Shown: one piece after another, positions 15,883-28,350 of the stretch | Layout of the letters: the number at the start of each line of letters is the position of its first letter | Numbering within the stretch: position 1 is the first letter of the stretch | DNA from: Flavipsychrobacter sp. | GTDB taxonomy: Bacteria > Bacteroidota > Bacteroidia > Chitinophagales > Chitinophagaceae | Assembly (NCBI GenBank): GCA_016786665.1 | Contig: JAEUVZ010000019.1 | Span: 62,001 to 126,000, forward strand | DNA length: 64,000 nucleotides | Direction of reading: 5' to 3' | The notes under the pieces: generated by a model | Seen by the model: the letters and a program-made list of their open reading frames with translations, nothing else | The model's database searches: none | What the model was told of the DNA's origin: nothing | Made by a program: the position numbers and the translations under genes

Positions 15883-18800
15883 TTACTTGATAAGCGATAT
15901 ATCCCCTTTCTTAAACACCCGTTCGCCGTTGGGGCAGGAGGTTTCCAGGAAATACACGTACACGTCGGGAGACAGCGGGTTGCCGCGTAGCGTTCCATCC
16001 CATCCGTACTTAGGGTCGTTGGAAAGGAAGTTGTTGGCTTCGTGCAGCAGCTCTCCCCACCGGTTGTACACTTTAAAGACCTTTATCTTATCCATACCCG
16101 GAGTTTGCGGATAGAAGATGTCGTTGTTGCCATCATTGTTCGGGGTAAAGGTGTTGGCCATAAAGATGTTATTGCCATCGCACGACACGGTGAATGTTAT
16201 ATCATCTACCGCGCGGCAAACATTGTTGTACACCGTAGCCACATAGGTAATAGTGTTGTCTATGGTGGCTGTGGGGTCTATGCAGTCTTCGCAGCTCAGG
16301 CTGGATGCCGGTTCCCAGGTTATCCGCTCTGCATGTGTCGTGTCTGCCAGTATCTGCACCAGTGTTCCGGGTAATACTTTTTTATCGGGCCCCAGCTCTA
16401 TGGTAGGGCGCTCGTGTACTACCACGGTTTGGGTCAGCGTATCGGAGAAGCAGATGTTTTGTGTAATGATCACCGAATAGGTAGTGGTGGCGTCCGGGCT
16501 TGCGGTGGGGTTTGACGGCGCCTCGGTATTTACATTCGGGAGCGGATACCAGTAGTAGTCCGTACCGCCTGAAGCGGAGAGTTGGGCCGTGTCGCCTTTG
16601 CAAAGTTGGATGCTGTCGCCAATGGAGGTGCCTTCGTCGGTGTACACGGTAATGGTTACCCGGTCGGAGTCACGACAGCCATTTGTATCAATGCCTATTA
16701 CTTCAAAGGTAGTGGTGGCATTGGGGTTGGCGCCGGTGGTGGCGCAGCCCGCACAGGCAACCCATTGCGCCGGCGACCACTGGTAATGGGCGGCGCCGGA
16801 AGCGCTTAGTATAATGCTGTCAGCACCATAGCAATGTATGCGGTCGGGTCCCGCTTCTACATTAGGTAGCGGGAAGCCATTTATCGTAATGCTCGCGGTT
16901 TTAACGCAGCCATTGTCATCCGTTACGGTTACCGTATAGGTACCCGGGGATAGCTGCTGTACATTGGTTCCGTACTGCGCAGGTGTAGTGCTCCACGCAA
17001 AAGTGTAGGGTGTAGTGCCGCCAGACGCCACTGCTTCAGCGCTTCCGGTCGCTTCGTTCATACAGCTATTCCCCAGTGTGCTGGCAGCCAGTTGTAGGTC
17101 CGCGGGTTCGTTTACCTGTACTGTTTCCGTATCGGAGCAGCCGTTGGCATCGGTTATGGTTACCGTGTAAGTGCCCGGGTTCATGTTGCCCGCTGTAGCG
17201 CCGGTGCTGCCGTTGCTCCAGAGATAGGAGTAAGGCGCAGTACCTCCGTTAGCGGTTACGCTGGCTGTTCCGTCCTGGCCGCCATAACACTTTATGTGTT
17301 CCAGGTTGGTGACAGCGGCGGTAAGCGGGGCGGGTTCCGTTATGGATGCGCTGGCCGAGTCCATACAGCCCAGGCTGTCGGTCACTACTATGCTGTACAG
17401 CCCCGGTGCCAGCCCCGATATAGTGAGGCCCGGCTGGGCTACATTCCATGCGTAGCTCACCGGTTGCGTACCTCCGCTGATGGTAGCGGTAATGCCGCCA
17501 TTTGCGGCGCCGCTGCACGATACATTGACCGGCGTAGCGGATACCTGTACTGCGGGCGATTGCCCGAGTGTTACCTGTGCGCTGTCGGTACAGCCATTGT
17601 TGTCGGTCACAACCACGGTATAGGTGCCGCCGTTCAGGTTGCCGGCGGTAGCCGTTGTCTGCACGGGTTGCGAGTTCCAGAGATAAGTATATGGGGTAAC
17701 GCCGCCGGTAGCTACTGCCGTAGCGGAGCCATTGGGCAGGCCGCAGGTAGCGTTCACGGGATTGGTGATGGCTACATCAAGCGGGTCGGGTTCGGATATG
17801 GTAATTTGTATGCTGTCGGTACATCCGTGCGCATCGGTTATCAGCGCACTATAGCTGCCCGGTGCCAGGTTGGTGGCTTGCGGAGTGGTTTGCACCGGCA
17901 AGGTGTTCCACAGGAAGGTATAGCCGGGTGTGCCGCCTATTACCGCTATGTTGGCCGAGCCGTTGCCCGCACCGTGGCACAATACATTGGAAGCCCCCGA
18001 AACAATAGCATTGAGCACGCCGGGCTGGGTAATGTTTACCGTGGCGTTCCCGGTACAGCCGTTGCTGTCGGTTACGGTTACCGTGTAGCTGCCCGCACCC
18101 AGGTTGGTAATTGTGGTGGTGGTTTGGGCATTGCTCCACATATAGGTATAGGGTGCCGTACCGCTATTGACGGTGATGCCGGCGCTGCCATCGGCCAGGC
18201 CGTTGCAGCTTACGTTTTGCTGGGTGGTGGCTACCAGTACCGCCGGTGTCTGGTATATTACTACGGTAGCCGTATCGGTGCATCCGTTGGCATCTGTTAC
18301 GGTAGCCTTGTAGGTGCCATTGGGCATATTGGTAGCCGTAGCGGTGGTCTGTACCGGTGTGGTATTCCAGTGATACGTGTAGGGGGCGGTGCCACCCGTT
18401 ACGCCCACGGTGGCGATGCCCGTAGTGTTGGTACACATGGGGCTGTTGGTGTAGCTGATGTATGCATTCAGCAGGGCGGGTTCAGCAATGCTGGTGGTGG
18501 CGCTGGTGATGCATCCCTGCGCATCGGTTACGGTTACCGATACGTTGCCGCCGCCCAGGTTCACCGCCGTTTGCGTGGTTTGTACCGGCAGGGTGCTCCA
18601 GCTATAAGTATAGGGCTGTGTACCCCCGGTTACGGTTACGGTAGCCGTTCCGTTTCCTGCGCCGTTGCAGGTCACGGGTGTATTACTGATGGTTGCCGCA
18701 TACAGCGGTGGCTGGGTGATGGTTACGGTGGCTGTTTGTACGCAGCCTATGGTGTTGGTAACGGTAACGGTGTACGTACCCGCGGCCAGGTTGGTGGCCG

Positions 18801-20073
18801 TTGCGGTCGTTTGCACGGGCTGCGTGCTCCAGCTATAGGTATAGCCGCCCCCGCCGGATACGTTAGCGGTGGCCGTTCCGTTGGTGCCGTTGTAGCACGT
18901 TACATTTTGCTGGCTGGTACTGAGGGTAAAGGCCGGGGCTACGTTTACCTGTATTGTATCCGTCCTGGAGCAGTTGTTGGTGTCGGTAACGGTTACGTAA
19001 TAGGTAGTGTTGCTGGTGACCGTAGCCACGGGGTTAGCGCAGGAAGTGCAGCTCAGGCCCGTTGAGGGTGTCCAGTTGTACGTAAAGGGCCCCATGTTAC
19101 CGGTGGCGCCGGAGGTAAGGGTAATATTGCTGCCGTAGCAGATAGTGGTGTCGGGTGTGCCGTTGAGTTGTATGTTGGAAATATTCAGAACGGTGCTCAG
19201 GGTGTCCGGGCAGCCAAAGCCACTGTAGGGTGTAAGAATAACATGGTAAGTGGAGGTTTGCGGTGGCGTAGGTATAGTGACTACCTGGCCGGACGCGACC
19301 ACGGTGCTGTATGTGGAGTCCATCCAGGTGTAGTATTCAAATCCCGGGGGAGCGGTGAGCGTGGTAGTGGTAGAGCCGCATACGCTGCCCGCTACCTGGA
19401 ACAGGCCACAGCTCATGTCTACATATCCATAGCCAAAGTGTGCGCCGAGGTCGCAATCACCGGTGGAGAAGTTTACTGCGATGGTATGCCCCGCCCAGCC
19501 GGAAAGGTCCAGGGTAGCGGTTGTCCAGTTCTTGTATTTTACAATGGTATCTACTGTTGAGTTTTGAAAGCCCGGCAGGGTAGAGGACGAGACGTAGATG
19601 AATTGCGCGCAGGGAAGGACCACGTTGGTGGCCGAATCGAATGCGACCACCTCGAAGCGGGGCTGCTCAAAAGTCTGGTGCCCCGGGTCTTCAAACACCA
19701 CGGCGTAGCGATAGATGAGGCTGTAATTGTTCACACCGGCGGGCACGTGCACGTAGAAGCGTGCTTTTTCCGCCTGAGAGTTCACATTGTCGTTACCCAA
19801 CTTCATGGAGTAGTTACCTCCGCCCGGCGATACTACCGGGAAGCCTCCATATGGATCGGTTCCGTTGCCACTGGTTATCACGTGCCGGTTGGGCTGTGCG
19901 CCTGTCAGGTTGTTGGCTACTATCGGGCAGCAGCTCCCGGTGTACAATAGCCAGTGCGTAAAATTTCCGTACTCGAATCCGGAGTTCTCCGGGCAGAATA
20001 ATACCTGCGCTCTTGCGGCTGATGATGTGAATAAAACCGCAAAAAATAATAATGTAGCTTTCAAAACATGCAT
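15883..20073 (-). CDS. SprB-repeat adhesin with gliding-motility C-terminal (type IX) sorting domain
   Basis: A 1396-residue surface protein. Residues 1-23 are a signal peptide ending in ARAQ. Residues 24 to about 235 form a jelly-roll-like domain rich in aromatic residues, then Ig/PKD-like domains follow to about 380. Residues about 380-1068 hold nine tandem SprB repeats of 70-78 residues, each ending in a pattern like GTYTVTVTDANGC followed by a TITxP strand. Further Ig-like modules precede a CHU_C/gliding-type sorting domain (about 1305-1396, with FTPNNDGNND and YNRWGE) that directs type IX secretion. A strong AGGAGGAGG ribosome-binding site precedes the ATG. The role in adhesion or gliding is inferred from the architecture. 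Confidence 0.88.
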   Translation of the reverse strand: MHVLKATLLFFAVLFTSSAARAQVLFCPENSGFEYGNFTHWLLYTGSCCPIVANNLTGAQPNRHVITSGNGTDPYGGFPVVSPGGGNYSMKLGNDNVNSQAEKARFYVHVPAGVNNYSLIYRYAVVFEDPGHQTFEQPRFEVVAFDSATNVVLPCAQFIYVSSSTLPGFQNSTVDTIVKYKNWTTATLDLSGWAGHTIAVNFSTGDCDLGAHFGYGYVDMSCGLFQVAGSVCGSTTTTLTAPPGFEYYTWMDSTYSTVVASGQVVTIPTPPQTSTYHVILTPYSGFGCPDTLSTVLNISNIQLNGTPDTTICYGSNITLTSGATGNMGPFTYNWTPSTGLSCTSCANPVATVTSNTTYYVTVTDTNNCSRTDTIQVNVAPAFTLSTSQQNVTCYNGTNGTATANVSGGGGYTYSWSTQPVQTTATATNLAAGTYTVTVTNTIGCVQTATVTITQPPLYAATISNTPVTCNGAGNGTATVTVTGGTQPYTYSWSTLPVQTTQTAVNLGGGNVSVTVTDAQGCITSATTSIAEPALLNAYISYTNSPMCTNTTGIATVGVTGGTAPYTYHWNTTPVQTTATATNMPNGTYKATVTDANGCTDTATVVIYQTPAVLVATTQQNVSCNGLADGSAGITVNSGTAPYTYMWSNAQTTTTITNLGAGSYTVTVTDSNGCTGNATVNITQPGVLNAIVSGASNVLCHGAGNGSANIAVIGGTPGYTFLWNTLPVQTTPQATNLAPGSYSALITDAHGCTDSIQITISEPDPLDVAITNPVNATCGLPNGSATAVATGGVTPYTYLWNSQPVQTTATAGNLNGGTYTVVVTDNNGCTDSAQVTLGQSPAVQVSATPVNVSCSGAANGGITATISGGTQPVSYAWNVAQPGLTISGLAPGLYSIVVTDSLGCMDSASASITEPAPLTAAVTNLEHIKCYGGQDGTASVTANGGTAPYSYLWSNGSTGATAGNMNPGTYTVTITDANGCSDTETVQVNEPADLQLAASTLGNSCMNEATGSAEAVASGGTTPYTFAWSTTPAQYGTNVQQLSPGTYTVTVTDDNGCVKTASITINGFPLPNVEAGPDRIHCYGADSIILSASGAAHYQWSPAQWVACAGCATTGANPNATTTFEVIGIDTNGCRDSDRVTITVYTDEGTSIGDSIQLCKGDTAQLSASGGTDYYWYPLPNVNTEAPSNPTASPDATTTYSVIITQNICFSDTLTQTVVVHERPTIELGPDKKVLPGTLVQILADTTHAERITWEPASSLSCEDCIDPTATIDNTITYVATVYNNVCRAVDDITFTVSCDGNNIFMANTFTPNNDGNNDIFYPQTPGMDKIKVFKVYNRWGELLHEANNFLSNDPKYGWDGTLRGNPLSPDVYVYFLETSCPNGERVFKKGDISLIK

Positions 20074-20928: not shown

Positions 20929-21474
20929 ATGAAGGTACTGGCCTGGGTAATGGGGTTCCTGCTTTATGGGGTGTGTGCGTCTGCGCAGATATACGATATG
21001 GAAAAAGGAAAGGCTGCGTTTCACTCCGAAGCGCCGCAGGAGCTCATCAGTGCCGAGTCGGTGGAGTTGAAGGGTATTGTAGATGCCGGCAAGAAATCCT
21101 TTGCCTTCCGGGTCAATATCTCCAGTTTCATGGGTTTCAACAGCCCGTTGCAGCGCGAGCATTTTAATGAGAACTATATGGAGAGCAACATCTTCCCCGA
21201 TGCGTCTTTTGCCGGGAAGATCATTGAAGATATAGACTTCAGCAAAGAAGGTAGCTACACCGTGCGGGCCAAGGGGAAGCTCACCATACACGGGGTGCCC
21301 GTAGAGCGCATAGTGCGCGCCGATGTGCTGGTAAAGGGTGGCCGCCTGATACTGTCTTCCCGTTTCATTGTCTCGCTTGCCGACCACAACATAAAAATCC
21401 CCCGGGTGGTCAGCGAAAAGCTGTCGCCTGATATAGAAGTAACGGTAAATGCTACCCTAAAGCAGCGCCCATGA
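20929..21474 (+). CDS. YceI-family periplasmic protein (first copy)
   Basis: A 181-residue exported protein with a signal peptide ending in ASAQ. The YceI lipocalin-like fold binds isoprenoid or other hydrophobic ligands in characterised members. The core HFNENYMES (78-86) and KGKLTIHGVPVE are characteristic. The same core occurs in the second YceI at 26751-27302. The stop overlaps the start of the histidine kinase gene by 4 nt, so the three genes YceI, kinase and regulator are translationally coupled. Confidence 0.82.
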   Translation: MKVLAWVMGFLLYGVCASAQIYDMEKGKAAFHSEAPQELISAESVELKGIVDAGKKSFAFRVNISSFMGFNSPLQREHFNENYMESNIFPDASFAGKIIEDIDFSKEGSYTVRAKGKLTIHGVPVERIVRADVLVKGGRLILSSRFIVSLADHNIKIPRVVSEKLSPDIEVTVNATLKQRP

Positions 21475-24305
21475 GGTACTTGTGGCTGTGCATATTAGTA
21501 GCTGTTTCCGTTGCCGCGCAGGCGCAGCGCCCGTTTAGCCGCGATTTCCGGATGGGCGAGTCGCAATCGCCCGTAAATGTGAATGCCATCGCTGAGTCGC
21601 CTTCCGGCTATATATGGGTGGGTACCGACGAAGGGCTCTTCCGTTTCAATGGCCGTGACTTTGTAAAAATAACAGACAGCGCCAACAAGGGCGTAACCGC
21701 ATTGGCGGCCCTGGGAAGCGAAGTGTACGCAGGCTACGCCGATGGTACGCTCGCCTGCCTTGCCGACGGCGTATTGCGGCCTGTGGGCAAGGCTGCTGCG
21801 GGTCCCCGCTCGCGGGTACAAAGCATTACCGCCGCCGGGGCCGGGCTCCTTTGGCTATGTACCGAAGAGGGGGTGTACCTCTATGCTTACGGACGCTATT
21901 TTCGTATCAGCGGCGCGCAGGGGCTGGCCGATAACTTCACTTACCAACTGGTGGCGAAAGGGGCGTCGTGCGTAGTGGGTACCGATAATGGGGTCAGTTA
22001 CCTGCGTTTCGTGAACGATACCATTACCGCCCGGCGTTACGGAATACAGGATGGGTTGCCTGATAATATTATCAGCGCCATTAAGGCGGTGCCGGGCACT
22101 TCGGCGTACTGGGCCGGTACGCACGAAGGGGGCGCTTTTACATTCCGGCTGGACACTAACGGCATGCATGGCGTGGTAGCCGGATATGCCTCCAGGGGCT
22201 GGGGGCAGGTAAACGACATCTTCGCGGTGTCGGCGACAGAGGCCTGGGCTGTTACGGAGGCCGGCTACTTGCTGCACCTGCGCGCCGGCGATTCGTTGAG
22301 CGTAGTCCCCCTGCATTTTGCGGGAAAGAAGATTCGCCGCTTGCTGTATGTCCGTTCGGGCAACCTGTGGCTGGCCACCAACGAAGGGCTCACGGTGGTC
22401 ACTATCAGCCATGCGTCATACCATATAGCCGGGGCTCCGTATTTTTTCAGTACGCTGACGGCACTCACCGGCGGGGACGGCCGGATGTGGCTGGCGCAGG
22501 GTAGGGAACTACTATCGCTCCACCTGTCCGCTGATACCGTGGTGCCCGCCCGGGAGGCGATGCTGCCGGCGGCCATAACCTGCATGTACCTGCACGGCGG
22601 ACAGGGCATATGGTTAGGGACTTTTGGCCGTGGGCTCTGGCACTACATAGATGGCCGCCTGCGCCAGGTAAAAGGCCCGGCGGGAATGGATAACGCCAAT
22701 ATCCTCAGCATAGCCGCCTACAACAGCAGGCTCTGGGTGGCCAGCCTCAACGGGGTGGACGAGCTGGACGTTTCCGGCGACAAGATGGTGCCGGTAGCTC
22801 ATTACAACAAGGCCGGCGGCATAGGCAGCGATTATGTGTATCAACTGTACAACGATGGCCGCGGACGGCTGTGGCTGGCTACCGATGGCGGCGGTGTGGC
22901 GATGTATGACGGGCGCAGGTTTCACCGTTGGGATAGTACATCGGGGTTAACGGCCCGCGTGGTGTACAGCATTGCTGTCGATTCCTTTGGCCATGCGTGG
23001 GCGGGCACGCCCGATAAAGGTGTTTTCCGGTATGACGGGCGGCGCTGGCAGCAATTTACCCTGCAGAATGGATTGCAGGATATGAATGTGTCTTCTGTAA
23101 TGGCCAATAACTCCGGCCAGGTGATCGTTGTAACGCAGAAGGGTGTTGATGAATGGTTTCCTGGAAGCGGATTGTTCCGGCGGTTCAACAAGAAAACCAA
23201 CCTGGATATAGAGCATACATCGGCCGTGCTGAACTGCATGGCGCGTGATGCCGCCGGTAATGTTTATGTTCCGTTCGATAAGGGCTTTATCTCGTTCACG
23301 AATGTTTCGCGCCCGCTGGACATACGTCCGGGTATTTCAGTAAATGAAGTGCGCCTGTTCTTTAAGCCCGTAAGCTACCGGAGCACGTTCGGCCACGATG
23401 AGAACCAGTTGTCGTTCCAGTATGAGGGAATTAATTATTCCAATATAGAACGCCTCCATTACCGCTACCGGCTGGAGGGCTACCAGAACGAGTGGATTTA
23501 TACCGACGATGAAACGGTGACGTTCTCCCGGCTGCCTGCCGGTACGTTTCACTTCCGCATTCAAGCCTCCCTGGATATGGACTTTGAAGAGGCGAACGAA
23601 GCGGTCTATACATTCCGAATCCGCGCCCCGTTCTGGAAGGCCCCGTGGTTCCTGGTGTTGTCGGTGGGGATTGTTTTTGGATTGCTGTACGCCTACATAA
23701 AAGCCCGCGAGCGCAGCCTCCGGAAGGTGAACGAACTGCAGGAAGAGCGCCTGAAGTTTGAGTACGAACTGCTCCGCAGCCAGGTAAACCCGCATTTCCT
23801 GTTCAACAGCCTGAACACGCTCAGCGCATTGATAGAGGAGGATAAAGACAAAGCGGTGCAATACACCTCCCAGCTATCAGACCTGTACCGCTCGGTACTG
23901 GCGCACAAGGATATGGACCTGATAACCCTGGGGGAGGAACTGCGCATCATAGAGCGGTACATGTTCGTGCAGCAGAGCCGGTTCGGCGATGCGCTTCGGT
24001 TGTCGGTTTCCGTACCGGAAGCGGTAATGAAGAGCGGGAAAGTAGTGCCGCTGGCATTGCAGATACTGGTAGAGAATGCCATAAAACACAATACTGTTTC
24101 GCGCTCCGCCCCGCTGGTGATTTATATAGAAGCCGACGAGTTGCAGGTAACAGTGCGCAATGAGCTGAAGCCCAAAATAACCAAAGAGAAAGGAGAAGGC
24201 CTGGGCCTGCACAATATCCGGAAGCGATATTCGTTGCTCACCAAAAGGCCGCTGGTCAATACCATTGCCGATAATCAATATGTTGTATCATTGCCATTGT
24301 TATGA
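21471..24305 (+). CDS. Two-component sensor histidine kinase with beta-propeller sensor (LytS-type)
   Basis: A 944-residue membrane sensor. After a signal peptide (ending AQAQ), residues about 25-600 carry repeated propeller blades of the two-component-regulator type (GYIWVGTDEGLFRF, RLWLATDGGGVAMYDG, HAWAGTPDKGVFRYDG). A Y_Y_Y domain follows (about 620-710), then one transmembrane helix (near 715-740), a coiled coil and a LytS-type kinase core with NPHFLFN (His775 as phospho-acceptor) and the ATPase motif ILVENAIKHN. It overlaps YceI upstream and the LytTR regulator downstream (ATGA). The signal sensed outside the cytoplasm is unknown. Confidence 0.88.
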   Translation: MRYLWLCILVAVSVAAQAQRPFSRDFRMGESQSPVNVNAIAESPSGYIWVGTDEGLFRFNGRDFVKITDSANKGVTALAALGSEVYAGYADGTLACLADGVLRPVGKAAAGPRSRVQSITAAGAGLLWLCTEEGVYLYAYGRYFRISGAQGLADNFTYQLVAKGASCVVGTDNGVSYLRFVNDTITARRYGIQDGLPDNIISAIKAVPGTSAYWAGTHEGGAFTFRLDTNGMHGVVAGYASRGWGQVNDIFAVSATEAWAVTEAGYLLHLRAGDSLSVVPLHFAGKKIRRLLYVRSGNLWLATNEGLTVVTISHASYHIAGAPYFFSTLTALTGGDGRMWLAQGRELLSLHLSADTVVPAREAMLPAAITCMYLHGGQGIWLGTFGRGLWHYIDGRLRQVKGPAGMDNANILSIAAYNSRLWVASLNGVDELDVSGDKMVPVAHYNKAGGIGSDYVYQLYNDGRGRLWLATDGGGVAMYDGRRFHRWDSTSGLTARVVYSIAVDSFGHAWAGTPDKGVFRYDGRRWQQFTLQNGLQDMNVSSVMANNSGQVIVVTQKGVDEWFPGSGLFRRFNKKTNLDIEHTSAVLNCMARDAAGNVYVPFDKGFISFTNVSRPLDIRPGISVNEVRLFFKPVSYRSTFGHDENQLSFQYEGINYSNIERLHYRYRLEGYQNEWIYTDDETVTFSRLPAGTFHFRIQASLDMDFEEANEAVYTFRIRAPFWKAPWFLVLSVGIVFGLLYAYIKARERSLRKVNELQEERLKFEYELLRSQVNPHFLFNSLNTLSALIEEDKDKAVQYTSQLSDLYRSVLAHKDMDLITLGEELRIIERYMFVQQSRFGDALRLSVSVPEAVMKSGKVVPLALQILVENAIKHNTVSRSAPLVIYIEADELQVTVRNELKPKITKEKGEGLGLHNIRKRYSLLTKRPLVNTIADNQYVVSLPLL

Positions 24306-25051
24306 GGATACTGATAGTAGAAGACGAATTGCCGGCGTTCAATAAGCTGAGCAAACTGGTACTGGAAAGCATTCCCGGCGCGCAGATAGCCGGCCATATA
24401 GACAGCATAGCAGCCGCCCGTGAGTGGTTTGCCGGCAACGCTATGCCGGATGTGGTGCTGATGGACATTCACCTGGCCGATGGTTCGGCTTTCGACTTGG
24501 TGAAGCTGGTGAAGATAGAGTGCCCCGTAATATACACTACCGCTTACGACGAGTATGCGATGGAGGCGTTCAAGACATCCGGTATCGACTACCTGCTGAA
24601 GCCGGTGAAGCAGGAGGAACTGGCGCGGGCCTTTCAAAAGCTCTCGCAGTTCCGGAATTTCTTTTCCGGCCCGGCCGAGGTTCCGCAGGCGGGCGGCCCG
24701 GCGGAATATAAAAAGCGTTTCGTGATACGCTTTGGCGAACATATAAAGACCGTAGGCGCTGAAGAGATAGCTTATTGCTTTAGCGAGAACAAGGCGACCT
24801 ACGCCCGCACGCACGAGGGACGAACCTATCCCATGGACCACAACCTGGACGCACTGGAGAGCATGCTGGACCCTGAAGTGTTTTTCCGGGTCAACCGCCA
24901 GTATCTTATTTGCCTGAAGGCCATAGACGAAATGAAAACCTATAGCAAAGCCCGGGTGATCGTAAGCCTGAAGCCCCCGGTGAAGGAGGCTCCCGTGGTA
25001 AGTTCAGAGCGGGCGGCGCAGTTTAAGCTGTGGCTGGCCGGTGAACTATAA
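24302..25051 (+). CDS. LytTR-family response regulator
   Basis: A 249-residue regulator. The receiver domain (1-120) has the acidic pair in VEDE, phospho-acceptor Asp55 in LMDIHLADG and the conserved Lys in LLKPVK. Residues about 145-249 are a LytTR DNA-binding domain (IKTVGAEEIAYCFSENKAT, then FFRVNRQYLI). It overlaps the kinase gene by 4 nt and is its obvious partner. The cytochrome/YceI genes downstream are plausible targets. Confidence 0.9.
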   Translation: MRILIVEDELPAFNKLSKLVLESIPGAQIAGHIDSIAAAREWFAGNAMPDVVLMDIHLADGSAFDLVKLVKIECPVIYTTAYDEYAMEAFKTSGIDYLLKPVKQEELARAFQKLSQFRNFFSGPAEVPQAGGPAEYKKRFVIRFGEHIKTVGAEEIAYCFSENKATYARTHEGRTYPMDHNLDALESMLDPEVFFRVNRQYLICLKAIDEMKTYSKARVIVSLKPPVKEAPVVSSERAAQFKLWLAGEL

Positions 25052-25118
25052 GACATTTTCCATCTTGCAAAATTCCCGTTTCGTCATTTTATACCGGCCG
25101 ATATCCTTTACTGGCATG

Positions 25119-25126
25119 TATTTTTG
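25119..25126 (+). promoter_or_regulatory. -7 type promoter element before the OB-fold gene
   Basis: TATTTTTG matches TAnnTTTG, 23 nt before the ATG at 25150. No clear TTG at the -33 position, so activator dependence is possible (inference). Confidence 0.4.
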
Positions 25127-25149
25127 ACGCAAAGTGCTATATTAACACA

Positions 25150-25560
25150 ATGAGCAGAAAAGCTAAGTATATATTCCTCCTGGTACTTTTATTCGTGTCG
25201 GCCGCCGGTATCATCGGTTACCGCATATGGAACCGGCCCCCCGATACGGTAGATAGCCAGGAAGGCGTGCCCGTAACAGCGGTGGCGCTGGTGAAAGAAT
25301 TTGCGGCTGACGAAGCCAAGGCCAATACCCGGTATGCGGGCAAGGCCCTGTCGGTATCGGGCATGGTAAGTGGCACGGAGCGAGACCAGGATGGCGGTAC
25401 TATGCTGCTGTTGCAGAGCGAGGACCCCACCATGACCGTGCAGTGCGCCATGCAGCCCGGCAGCCCCGCCGTGGAGAACGGCAGGCAGGTAACGGTAAAA
25501 GGTTTCTATTCCGCCAGCAGCATGTTTGGCGTATCGCTTACCGGTTGTATTGTACAATAA
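25150..25560 (+). CDS. Membrane-anchored OB-fold (tRNA_anti-like) protein
   Basis: A 136-residue protein with an N-terminal transmembrane helix (about 7-25) followed by an extracytoplasmic OB-fold. The pattern NTRYAGKALSVSGMVSG and the closing NGRQVTVKGFYSA strand are typical of the tRNA_anti-like family, which is not known to bind RNA outside the cytoplasm. It opens the cytochrome block, 98 nt after the response regulator. Confidence 0.7.
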   Translation: MSRKAKYIFLLVLLFVSAAGIIGYRIWNRPPDTVDSQEGVPVTAVALVKEFAADEAKANTRYAGKALSVSGMVSGTERDQDGGTMLLLQSEDPTMTVQCAMQPGSPAVENGRQVTVKGFYSASSMFGVSLTGCIVQ

Positions 25561-25574
25561 ACGAAGGCAATTAA

Positions 25575-26288
25575 ATGAGTAAATGGATAAAGGCGCTTGC
25601 CGCCTGTTTCGTGGTGATGCTGGCCGTACTGCCCGCATGCCAGCACAAGAGTAACTTACCGGTGCCGGGTAGCAACGATACCACCGGCGGGGGCAGCCCC
25701 GATACCGGTATCTGTTTTGAGCGGGATATACTTCCTATATTTCGCTCTAACTGCGCCAAGAGCGGCTGCCACGATGCGGCATCGCACCAGGAAGGGTATA
25801 TACTGGATAATTACAACAACATAATGAATACAGGTGACCACGATGGTATTATCCCCGGCAATGCCCACGAGAGCGAAATTTATGAGTCGCTGGTAGAGGA
25901 TGACCTGGATAAGCGCATGCCGCCACCCCCCAACCCGGCCCTGCCTGCTGCCCAGGTAGAGTTGATACGCCGGTGGATAAATGAAGGCGCACAAAACGGG
26001 ACGGGCTGCGCGACGCTTTGCGATACCAATAGTTTCACCTTTAGCGGCGCGGTGCAACCTATATTGCAGCAAAGCTGCGTGGGCTGTCACAATGCATCGC
26101 TGGCCTCGGGTGGGGTGAACCTCAGTAATCATGCCGGTACTGCCGCGTCGGTAAGCAGTGGCAGGCTCCTGGGTGCTATCCGGCACCAGGGGGGCTTTGT
26201 CGCCATGCCGCAGGGCGCACCAAAGCTCTCTGACTGCCAAATCAGGCAGGTGGAAAAGTGGGTAGCGGCAGGCACCCTGAACAACTAG
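25575..26288 (+). CDS. Di-haem c-type cytochrome lipoprotein with one CX4CH and one CXXCH site
   Basis: A 237-residue lipoprotein (signal ending LPAC, Cys22) with two planctomycete-type cytochrome c domains. Domain 1 has an unusual CAKSGCH site (Cys60, Cys65, His66) and a likely distal Met in KRMPPPP. Domain 2 has a classical CVGCH site (Cys168, Cys171, His172) and a likely distal Met in VAMPQG. It probably carries electrons outside the cytoplasmic membrane. It starts 14 nt after the OB-fold gene. Covalent haem at the CX4CH site is inferred. Confidence 0.78.
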   Translation: MSKWIKALAACFVVMLAVLPACQHKSNLPVPGSNDTTGGGSPDTGICFERDILPIFRSNCAKSGCHDAASHQEGYILDNYNNIMNTGDHDGIIPGNAHESEIYESLVEDDLDKRMPPPPNPALPAAQVELIRRWINEGAQNGTGCATLCDTNSFTFSGAVQPILQQSCVGCHNASLASGGVNLSNHAGTAASVSSGRLLGAIRHQGGFVAMPQGAPKLSDCQIRQVEKWVAAGTLNN

Positions 26289-26335
26289 AAAACAATACAT
26301 AAATTTTTGGCAATAAGTTTGCTTATATTCAATAT

Positions 26336-26731
26336 ATGAAAGTGAGTGCGAACATTACACGATGGTTGCTTCCCGCAGCCATTATCCTGGTAGCCGGCTG
26401 CTACAACGACAAGGCCGACCAACTATACCCCGAGCCCCCGGCGGGCGGCAACGCCTGCGATACGGCCGCCGTAAGCTATGCTACTGCCGTGAAGCCGGTC
26501 ATTAAACAATACTGTACCGACCCCGGCTGCCACAGCGGCAGCGGCACCACCGGCAGCTACCTGCTGAACACTTACGAAGGGGTGAAGCTGAGTGCCGACA
26601 ATAACCGTTTGCTGGGCGCCATAAGGCACGACAACGGTTTTGTAGCCATGCCGGCGGGAATGGCCAAACTGACTAGTTGCGACATTAATAAAATAACCGC
26701 CTGGGTGAACCAGGGAAAACAGAATAATTAA
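26336..26731 (+). CDS. Mono-haem c-type cytochrome lipoprotein with CX4CH site
   Basis: A 131-residue lipoprotein (lipobox LVAGC, Cys22). Its single haem domain has CTDPGCH (Cys60, Cys65, His66) and the distal-Met motif VAMPAG. It resembles domain 2 of the preceding cytochrome around RLLGAIRH and GFVAMP, so the two genes are related by duplication. A TAAGTTTG -7-type element lies at 26314-26321, 14 nt before the ATG, but no TTG sits at the proper distance. Confidence 0.78.
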   Translation: MKVSANITRWLLPAAIILVAGCYNDKADQLYPEPPAGGNACDTAAVSYATAVKPVIKQYCTDPGCHSGSGTTGSYLLNTYEGVKLSADNNRLLGAIRHDNGFVAMPAGMAKLTSCDINKITAWVNQGKQNN

Positions 26732-26750
26732 TAAACACCTAAAAGCAAAA

Positions 26751-27302
26751 ATGATGAAAAGAACATGGATGATAGCAGCGCTGGTATTAGCTACGGCAAC
26801 ATCGGGTATGGCGCAGAGGTATATGACGCGCACGGGTAAGGTATCGTTCTTTTCCGGTGCCAGGCTGGAGAACATAGAGGCGTTCAACAACGAAGCCGCG
26901 GCGGTACTGGACGCAAAAACCGGAGACATGGCTTTCCAGGTGCCTGTAAAGAGCTTCAAGTTTGAAAAGGCCCTGATGCAGGAGCACTTTAATGAGAACT
27001 ATATGGAGAGCGATAAGTTCCCCAAAGCAGAGTTTAAAGGAAAGATAACGGACATCAGCAAGGTAGACTTCACTAAAGATGGAACCTACAATGTTTCTTC
27101 CGCCGGCAAGATGACCATTCATGGCGTTACTAAGGATGTGTCCGTTCCCGGAACAATAACCGTTAAGGGCAAGGAAGCGACCCTTAATTCAAAGTTCAGG
27201 ATAAAGGCCGCCGAATATGGTATCAAAATTCCTGCTGCGGTGGTGGGCAAGGTGGCAGAAGTAATGGAAGTAACGGTAAACAGCAACCTGAAAGCACAGT
27301 AA
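26751..27302 (+). CDS. YceI-family periplasmic protein (second copy)
   Basis: A 183-residue exported protein with a signal peptide ending in GMAQ. It contains the same core as the first YceI (HFNENYMES at 79-87, AGKMTIHGVTKDV), so the two are paralogues flanking the kinase/regulator/cytochrome genes. It starts 19 nt after the mono-haem cytochrome and is followed 28 nt later by the DUF5777 barrel. Lipocalin-like binding of a hydrophobic ligand is the family expectation. Confidence 0.84.
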   Translation: MMKRTWMIAALVLATATSGMAQRYMTRTGKVSFFSGARLENIEAFNNEAAAVLDAKTGDMAFQVPVKSFKFEKALMQEHFNENYMESDKFPKAEFKGKITDISKVDFTKDGTYNVSSAGKMTIHGVTKDVSVPGTITVKGKEATLNSKFRIKAAEYGIKIPAAVVGKVAEVMEVTVNSNLKAQ

Positions 27303-27330
27303 TAGCATCACCACACACAGACAACACTAT

Positions 27331-28266
27331 ATGAACATACGCCGCATAATACCCGCCGCCGCATTGCTGCTGAGCCTGTCGGCCCCGGTATGCGCACAAG
27401 ACGATACATCGGGCAACGACCTGATGAAGATGCTGGAAGATGAGCCCGGGGCGGAAGCCACGAGGGAATACACTACCGCTACCTTTAAGGCTACCCGTAT
27501 CATAAACGGGCACAGCATAGAGAACGTAGGGAAGGGCGTGCTCGATTTCCGAATACTGCACCGCTTCGGCGCCCTGAACCAAAGTTTCAGGAACTTCTTC
27601 GGACTCGATAATGCCAATACCAAGCTGGCGTTCGACTACGGCGTTACCGACTGGCTGATGGTAGGCCTGGCCCGTGGTACTTACGATAAGGAATTTGATG
27701 GCTTTGTAAAGGCCAAAATACTCCGGCAGCAGCAGGGTGGCGGCATGCCGTTCAGCATGAGCTACGTAGGCGCTATGTCGGTAAGGACCATCGATGTACC
27801 CGTTCCGGTGGGTACGGAGTATTATTTTACCAATCGCCTGGCATATGTCAACCAGTTGCTTATCGCCCGCAAGTTCAGCAACTGGTTGTCGCTCCAGCTG
27901 ATGCCCACGCACGTACATTATAACCTGGTGCCTACCACCGCCGAGCCTAACGACTTGTTTGCGCTGGGTGTGGGCGGAAGGATAAAGCTGAATAACCGCC
28001 TGGCGCTTACCGGGGAATATTTCTACCGCTTTAACGAGCTGAATGGCTACCACAATTCTCTTTCCGTGGGGCTGGATATAGAAACGGGCGGGCACGTATT
28101 CCAGCTGATGTTCTCCAATGCCACCACGCTTACCGAGCGCGCATTCATTGGCCAGACCTCCGGACGTTGGGATAAAGGCGATATACACTTCGGGTTCAAT
28201 ATCTCCCGTGTCTTCACCATCGTGAAGCCTAAGGGTTTTGAAGGCTCCCGGAACAAGATATACTAA
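27331..28266 (+). CDS. DUF5777 family outer-membrane beta-barrel protein
   Basis: A 311-residue exported protein with a signal peptide (ending in PVCAQ). The mature part alternates hydrophobic and polar residues in predicted beta strands and matches the DUF5777 barrel family (ENVGKGVLDFRILHRFG near the start, TEYYFTNRLAYVNQLLIARK in the middle, a phenylalanine-rich end). It is the last gene of the YceI-cytochrome block, before a bidirectional terminator. Its biochemical function is not known. Confidence 0.78.
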   Translation: MNIRRIIPAAALLLSLSAPVCAQDDTSGNDLMKMLEDEPGAEATREYTTATFKATRIINGHSIENVGKGVLDFRILHRFGALNQSFRNFFGLDNANTKLAFDYGVTDWLMVGLARGTYDKEFDGFVKAKILRQQQGGGMPFSMSYVGAMSVRTIDVPVPVGTEYYFTNRLAYVNQLLIARKFSNWLSLQLMPTHVHYNLVPTTAEPNDLFALGVGGRIKLNNRLALTGEYFYRFNELNGYHNSLSVGLDIETGGHVFQLMFSNATTLTERAFIGQTSGRWDKGDIHFGFNISRVFTIVKPKGFEGSRNKIY

Positions 28267-28288
28267 GCATTGTATCCATCCGCAAATG

Positions 28289-28321
28289 AAAGCGCCCGTC
28301 TCGTAGTGAGGCGGGCGCTTT
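28289..28321. terminator. Bidirectional terminator between DUF5777 and mdh
   Basis: A 14-bp stem including one T-G pair (28289-28302 with 28308-28321), loop GTAGT. An A-rich left foot and TTT right foot suit both directions for the two convergent genes. Confidence 0.8.
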
Positions 28322-28350
28322 ACCGTGGTATTAAAGTGGTATGCTTGCTA

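Follow-up and report, generated by a model that had tools for sequence, protein, structure and literature searches.

The window analysed here is a stretch of 64,000 nucleotides from Flavipsychrobacter sp. that contains, between positions 20929 and 28266, eight co-directional open reading frames on the + strand. A previous sequence-only reading of this DNA had described eight co-directional genes in 7.3 kb with the first three translationally coupled. Both statements hold with simple longest-ORF calls: all the frames are present and each of the first two junctions is a 4-bp overlap (gaps of -4 and -4, ATGA). A 98-bp gap (25052-25149) separates the third gene, coding for a regulator, from the fourth, coding for an OB-fold protein, and since it contains a promoter-like element, the genes more likely form two transcription units than a single one. 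The five genes downstream of the gap are spaced by 14, 47, 19 and 28 bp. The layout thus looks like a signalling triad (YceI-A, kinase and LytTR regulator) followed by an operon (OB-fold protein, diheme cytochrome, monoheme cytochrome, YceI-B and DUF5777). A single obligate eight-gene operon is ruled out by the many loci that hold just one of the two units.

A strong terminator had also been proposed at the end of the set. A hairpin with a 14-pair stem is indeed found 3' of the DUF5777 gene, between convergent genes (28289-28321, no strand assigned; -30.9 kcal/mol and z -5.9 for the 66-nt stretch 28270-28335), and it is probably a bidirectional terminator, although its T run is short and a generic terminator scan does not list it. 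A generic sigma-70 promoter scan found 9 sites for 9.7 expected. On the other side of the locus, positions 15883-20073 of the - strand encode a repetitive secreted protein of 1,396 aa whose end, by reading of the sequence, resembles gliding/T9SS cargo. Its gene adjoins a DUF4294 gene that is divergent from YceI-A.

The first gene of the triad (20929-21474, +) encodes YceI-A, a YceI lipocalin (Pfam YceI, E 6.9e-9) assigned by its tree group to a regulator-linked type and whose signal peptide was read from the sequence. It is followed by a LytS-type sensor kinase (21471-24305, +) in which Pfam recognizes a Reg_prop propeller, a Y_Y_Y part and a His_kinase domain, with a membrane helix also read from the sequence, and by a response regulator (24302-25051, +) composed, according to Pfam, of Response_reg and a LytTR DNA-binding domain. 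The features of a LytTR two-component system are thereby present, namely His_kinase, receiver and LytTR domains by Pfam and, by reading, the motif NPHFLFN in the window kinase; NxHFL[FY]N occurs in 56 of the 66 proteins labelled HK. The window genome (3.5 Mb) has five YceI places altogether and nine His_kinase places, and none of the other eight kinases adjoins any of these YceI places.

The operon starts with an OB-fold protein with an N-terminal membrane anchor (25150-25560, +; PF12869, tRNA_anti-like), as indicated by Pfam and by a model (pLDDT 94.7) that shows a helix at residues 3-27 and then the OB fold. The folds nearest to this model are another lipoprotein (3f1z, Z 12.6) and the haem chaperone CcmE (Z 10.1), and cysteines at 99, 120 and 133 are found in 28, 28 and 23 of 36 aligned OB proteins. 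Two c-type cytochromes, both probable lipoproteins, are encoded next. The diheme cytochrome (25575-26288, +) matches PSCyt1 and Cytochrome_CBB3 in Pfam, carries the haem motifs CAKSGCH (CX4CH) and CVGCH (CXXCH) and has a lipobox read from the sequence. The monoheme cytochrome (26336-26731, +) has the motif CTDPGCH (CX4CH) and a lipobox. It has no Pfam match at E 0.1, and its match to NCBIfam LIC11213_lipo (E 0.001) reaches 19.2 bits, under the cut-off of 100. The family labels used across loci come from profiles grown on the window proteins, and the diheme (CytD) and monoheme (CytM) types may take in unrelated cytochromes; under these labels, CX4CH is present in 102 of 111 CytD proteins, while the 158 CytM proteins have CXXCH in 95 cases, CX4CH in 50 and neither in 13. 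A lipobox heuristic was positive for 92/158 CytM and 59/113 CytD against 0/114 operon YceI, 8/183 DUF5777 and 1/127 OB proteins.

YceI-B (26751-27302, +; Pfam YceI, E 9.2e-18) is by its tree group an operon-type YceI lipocalin. Both window YceI proteins pass the curated PF04264 cut-off, with 36.7 and 65.5 bits against 23.7. The last gene (27331-28266, +) encodes a DUF5777 protein (PF19089, E 3.7e-95; 318.3 bits against a curated cut-off of 23.1), predicted to form an outer-membrane barrel. Its AlphaFold2 model, built with 38 sequences, has 12 strands (pLDDT 88.9) and supports the suggestion that DUF5777 is the outer-membrane part of the set. The nearest solved folds are KdgM (Z 17.8), FapF (Z 17.7), NanC and a COG4313 channel (Z 16.5), at an identity of just 6-13%; FadL and OMPLA rank lower, and conduit porins are absent among the fold matches listed. 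The four residues H77, Q133, T252 and H255 are invariant in the 38 sequences. DUF5777 differs from these barrels in its genomic setting, which contains cytochromes and YceI.

DUF5777 is present in 54 of 59 relatives and, across the phylum, in 115 of the 296 genomes sampled, five of which match weakly only; the 14 control genomes gave no match. From the relatives, 60 stretches around DUF5777 were fetched, a part of all the DUF5777 places found. From the named genomes, the best 80 DUF5777 loci among the matches listed were taken; these include Taibaiella koreensis, Mucilaginibacter, Salibacter, Tenacibaculum, Polaribacter and Emticicia. A run was defined as co-directional genes with gaps of up to 350 bp, and removal of duplicates by sequence left 143 distinct DUF5777 loci. 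The same run contains a cytochrome in 129 of them, YceI in 121, an OB protein in 96 and kinase plus regulator in 23, counts that are inflated by relatedness and in which a contig end, or a second DUF5777 copy that lacks YceI, accounts for some absences. YceI and a cytochrome occur together in 110 loci, and with the OB protein in 87. Set against the five YceI places of the 3.5-Mb window genome, the figure of 110/143 puts the gene set far beyond chance. The sequence-only reading had named a gene order found in no other genome as grounds for giving up its proposal; a count across Bacteroidota shows that the set recurs.

Its broader view, in which the eight genes make one system, stands in part. 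The set does recur, but ten triads lie away from DUF5777, and at most DUF5777 loci a triad is not seen, 120 of the 143 being without kinase plus regulator in the run. Where kinase and regulator are in the run, at least two YceI genes are found in 22 of 23 loci. In addition, COX1 is present in 283 of the 296 genomes, which makes its co-occurrence with DUF5777 hardly informative; the 13 genomes that lack COX1 all fall outside the DUF5777 genomes (hypergeometric 0.0014, kinship ignored). A contig filed as a Comamonas MAG also holds the operon (L149). The YceI tree places it with Bacteroidota, and the filing is probably a binning error.

The YceI proteins of these loci fall into two groups. In a first, quick tree of 148 sequences, 25 kinase-linked rows and 1 regulator-linked row came together with 1 other row (L101) with a support of 99; in L101, the kinase and the regulator sit beyond DUF5777, on its far side. 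A careful tree of a 75-row subset, with randomly drawn operon rows and without three regulator-linked loci that are near-copies or short, separated 35 regulator-linked rows from 40 operon rows (support 99/99), and 11 of these 35 are loci not beside DUF5777 (L224 included). To lessen the bias towards proximity to DUF5777, an alignment of the regulator-linked YceI group was used to search the order, in 248 genomes. Four of the best 43 places had already been fetched, and the other 39 were fetched and labelled. The regulator-linked YceI label was the best one for the anchor in 37 of these 39 regions; the anchors of L240 and L243 are operon-type, so the border between the groups is soft.

In 35 of the 37 loci, the gene next to YceI-A is the kinase, and in the other two (L215 and L224) it is the regulator. 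Ten kinase-bearing triads (L209, L210, L217, L219, L221, L225, L231, L232, L237 and L241) have their nearest DUF5777 at about 14 kb or more, or on another contig. DUF5777 is present in all 29 genomes of the YceI-A set that were searched for it, two of which (G178 and G164) have operon-type YceI only. As judged from tree and neighbourhood, YceI-A goes with the signalling genes and not with the operon. In three genomes of one family (L065, L215 and L224), the LytTR regulator comes directly after YceI-A, and the kinase seems to have been lost or moved. Along with L101, where YceI-A is apart from the kinase, these loci weaken the view of YceI-A as the kinase's partner. Very long open reading frames (1,945 to 2,930 codons) come after the unlinked triads L217, L231 and L241 and may be additional targets or mere neighbours.

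The two window YceI proteins had been singled out for a shared HFNENYMES core. The core is exact in both copies, but it marks the family as a whole, since 61 of 148 neighbourhood YceI proteins have it unchanged, and it is ruled out as a special tie between YceI-A and YceI-B. The two proteins are identical at 77 of 185 alignment columns. Their separate tree groups rule out YceI-A as a recent duplicate of YceI-B.

Upstream of the operon, a motif search revealed a tandem direct repeat of 21-bp period (25053-25086, +), a predicted binding site of the LytTR regulator. At 33 bp from the repeat end lies TATTTTTG (25119-25126, +), a -7-like promoter box that agrees with TAnnTTTG at 6/6 consensus positions. 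A Gibbs search of 29 regulator-to-operon regions, the window's included, returned TTCA.C with a 21-bp period in a 34-bp span, at 20.2 bits compared with 10.0-10.3 in three shuffled sets in which single-base composition was kept. The score threshold of 9.4 is the 99% level of 2,136 dinucleotide shuffles, and in a leave-one-out procedure 26 of the 29 regions were above it, the window region scoring 20.0. The repeat is the top-scoring place of the window (24.2, the next one 17.1), and a pattern made from the repeat and its relatives has the repeat itself as its sole match in 64 kb (0.10 expected).

A further set was made of 20 DUF5777 loci from 14 triad genomes, mostly with the triad away from the operon (one of them, G195, has a linked triad too) and with several second DUF5777 copies. 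Seven of these 20 loci were above the level (L245, L246, L247, L248, L249, L254 and L263), and in L258, which this count misses owing to the gene start called there, a site scoring 22.1 lies just upstream of CytD. When L263 is set aside, sites are found at the operon in six genomes whose triad is elsewhere (G250, G189, G143, G236, G200 and G111). Among the controls, which are relatives' loci without a triad in the fetched stretch and from genomes only some of which were searched wholly for a triad, 1 of 50 was above the level (L079). These 50 leave out the triad loci as well as L065, L067, L093 and L094, the last in error, no YceI-A having been found in its genome. Upstream of YceI-A, 15 of 60 regions score, eight of which belong to unlinked triads; two duplicates from the same contigs (L036 = L096 and L113 = L206) are kept in this count and removed in the strict-border one.

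With strict intergenic borders and shuffles that keep dinucleotides, the repeat was found in 26/26 training loci, which are scored with a matrix built from themselves, in 10/20 triad-adjacent loci outside training, a held-out set in which two kinase loci not of the YceI-A kind (L043 and L084) were left, and in 6/19 of the unlinked set, where the limits of the gene calls explain part of the misses, as with looser borders L245 and L249 score 24.8 and 22.4. The remainder gave 1/42 for the controls, 0/6 for a few others and 7/59 for the named loci without a kinase in view. In L206, L207 and L208, where the triad is downstream of the operon, the repeat lies upstream of the OB gene, which is what a site serving the operon should show. 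In an independent check, a TAnnTTTG box (at least 5/6 positions) lies 32 or 33 bp downstream of the repeat in 32 of 50 sites, for at most 0.58 per distance in shuffles, and in some of the others the downstream sequence is too short to tell.

This architecture resembles the one described for LytTR repeats, for which spacers of 11-13 bp are given (PMC6193735). In two Bacteroides, the same work reports 11-bp repeats and an offset of 11+4+19 = 34 bp to TATCTTTG (PMC6193735); the window 11-mer, placed by eye, spans 25074-25084 and the box starts at 25119, which is the same 34-bp offset. As for a wider regulon, a whole-genome pattern search, a blunt tool, gave 12 matches (at most 3 mismatches) against 23 for the reversed pattern, and in 3-kb stretches around the genome matches the best matrix score after the window's 24.2 was 14.6, so that a wider regulon is not indicated. 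The repeat is read as a candidate binding site of the LytTR regulator, and another LytTR regulator could use it. The earlier claim that the kinase and the regulator control the cytochrome, YceI and DUF5777 genes gains from the shared repeat, from its fixed promoter spacing and from the way it tracks the triad, but it is not proved.

Computation provides the gene content, its conservation, the separate YceI groups and a promoter architecture that tracks the triad. From there, we lean towards a two-component system with a dedicated lipocalin that switches on an outer-membrane redox operon. YceI-A would be co-produced with the propeller kinase and the LytTR regulator, and the phosphorylated regulator would bind the tandem repeat some 33 bp upstream of the TAnnTTTG box and activate the OB/cytochrome/cytochrome/YceI-B/DUF5777 operon; we infer the binding as well as activation rather than repression. 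The products would span the envelope, with a membrane-anchored OB-fold protein, a soluble YceI-B, lipid-anchored c-type cytochromes and the DUF5777 barrel. YceI-B may carry an amphiphile (an isoprenoid or a quinone, by family precedent). At the outer membrane, the operon would most likely pass electrons to envelope lipids or lipid-soluble redox compounds, or take electrons from them. Its purpose might be protection or disposal, after what has been proposed for BcnA/LcoA in Proteobacteria. The cargo, the ligand, the electron path and the redox chemistry, like a role of YceI-A as co-sensor, are what we infer on top of the regulatory scheme.

The closest known system is indeed BcnA/LcoA of Burkholderia cenocepacia. 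According to its description, mutants in the YceI lipocalin and in the linked cytochrome b561 have more membrane lipid peroxidation, the cytochrome is proposed to re-reduce lipocalin-bound quinone, and other YceI members hold a hydrophobic or isoprenoid ligand in their barrel (PMC9113575). The common ground is a YceI lipocalin in conserved linkage with a cytochrome, the envelope and a role in redox stress, putative for the present set (PMC9113575). The latter differs by its c-type cytochromes, its OB protein, its outer-membrane barrel and its linked two-component control. None of its eight proteins is a cytochrome b561, the partner to which BcnA/LcoA is linked, or another such electron donor, which counts against the redox-operon reading. 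Compared part by part, the set resembles BcnA/LcoA without being a member. By analogy, its best reading would be a regulated outer-membrane redox module with a lipocalin handling a lipid-soluble carrier.

On the signalling side, LytTR two-component systems with LytS-type kinases share with the triad a His_kinase, a LytTR regulator and a tandem-repeat site upstream of the promoter. Such systems have tandem direct repeats with a period of 21-22 bp upstream of the target promoter, and the repeat found here agrees with this. What sets the triad apart is the Reg_prop/Y_Y_Y part of its kinase and the dedicated YceI lipocalin encoded just before it. In the same way, the LytTR Regulatory Systems have LytTR repeats of 21-22-bp period at a set promoter distance, but they pair the LytTR regulator with a membrane protein (PMC6193735). 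The present regulator carries a receiver domain and is paired with a kinase, as is usual for two-component systems. It is conceivable, and we put it forward tentatively, that YceI-A binds a lipid or a quinone and reports its presence or redox state to the kinase propeller, matching the operon to the redox state of envelope lipids. If true, a lipocalin co-sensor would give two-component systems a sensing principle new to them. It would point to a way for bacteria to detect, outside the cytoplasm, redox carriers that are lipid-soluble, and would bear on the role of YceI lipocalins. For the DUF5777 family, the analysis adds a genomic setting, a predicted place in the outer membrane and a regulator with a concrete candidate site.

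Other readings of the operon can be proposed. An outer-membrane electron conduit for extracellular exchange, with electrons passing from the outer-membrane-anchored cytochromes through the DUF5777 barrel and with YceI and the OB protein as shuttles, would fit the association of a predicted barrel with probable lipoprotein cytochromes and the EB_dh-type, 4Fe-4S and NrfD proteins that adjoin certain DUF5777 loci. Mtr-type conduits, however, consist of a large MtrB-like barrel and multihaem cytochromes with about ten haems, and the porins of known conduits are much wider than a 12-strand barrel; the DUF5777 model has 12 strands and the two cytochromes bear just two and one haem motifs. To our knowledge, YceI is no part of known conduits, and such a role is unlikely. 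It is similarly improbable that DUF5777 forms a channel for the uptake or export of a compound, hydrophobic or sugar-like, that YceI-B would carry and the cytochromes oxidise. The KdgM/NanC, FapF and COG4313 folds, ahead of FadL and OMPLA, and the four invariant residues of DUF5777 speak for it. A common fold nevertheless proves no function, and no catabolic enzyme was detected among ten neighbour representatives run against Pfam.

There is still less reason to see the operon mainly as a cytochrome-assembly or metal-stress module in which the OB protein and YceI handle haem or metal for the cytochromes. The window OB protein shares with CcmE a membrane-anchored OB fold with an N-terminal helix, and its family has the recurrent cysteines mentioned above. 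The haem-binding His of CcmE lies in a C-terminal extension, while the window chain stops at the last OB strand and leaves no room for it; in addition, the best fold match is the other lipoprotein, and the OB protein is found in only 96 loci for 129 with a cytochrome. Finally, it is very improbable that the triad and the operon are mere neighbours, with a repeat that serves a different regulator or is common to promoters in general. In favour of this, most operon loci show no triad in view, triads also occur away from the operon and the motif is absent from half of the strict held-out set. Against it, the repeat is nearly absent from controls, is present at the operons of the six triad-elsewhere genomes and keeps a fixed distance to the box.

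The sequence-only reading knew of no published function for this set, and the literature on YceI with cytochromes, on LytTR kinases and on lipocalin two-component systems, mostly open-access, yielded none. DUF5777 is unnamed in the literature searched, outside of which subscription journals mostly fall. An RNA-seq study of iron limitation lists one YceI-like gene, with no tie to the present set noticed in the part available (PMC5429918).

The outer-membrane redox operon proposed here has other neighbours in some genomes. Genes for an ECF-type sigma factor and for a partner protein are found upstream of the operon in nine of the 60 stretches (L043, L046, L047, L050, L051, L054, L063, L082 and L095) and in L164. 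For one representative of each, Pfam identifies the first as a sigma-70 protein, and the match of the partner to an outer-membrane barrel, at 23.8 bits, stays below the threshold of 27; the partner is taken for an anti-sigma factor by its place. This pair is perhaps an alternative regulator of the operon genes. By reading of the sequences, an M23 peptidase and a peroxiredoxin of Bcp-like type are encoded at some DUF5777 loci. In L081, L084, L148 and L135, DUF5777 copies adjoin EB_dh-type proteins and CytD-type cytochromes, which is a second, different setting, with additional redox genes (4Fe-4S and NrfD types) next in L081 and L084. The peroxiredoxin, M23 and EB_dh neighbours are envelope or redox settings that fit a redox role without proof. 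In Polaribacter sp. WD7 (L174), two OB-YceI-DUF5777 modules are divergent, with a gene that matches the regulator profile between them.
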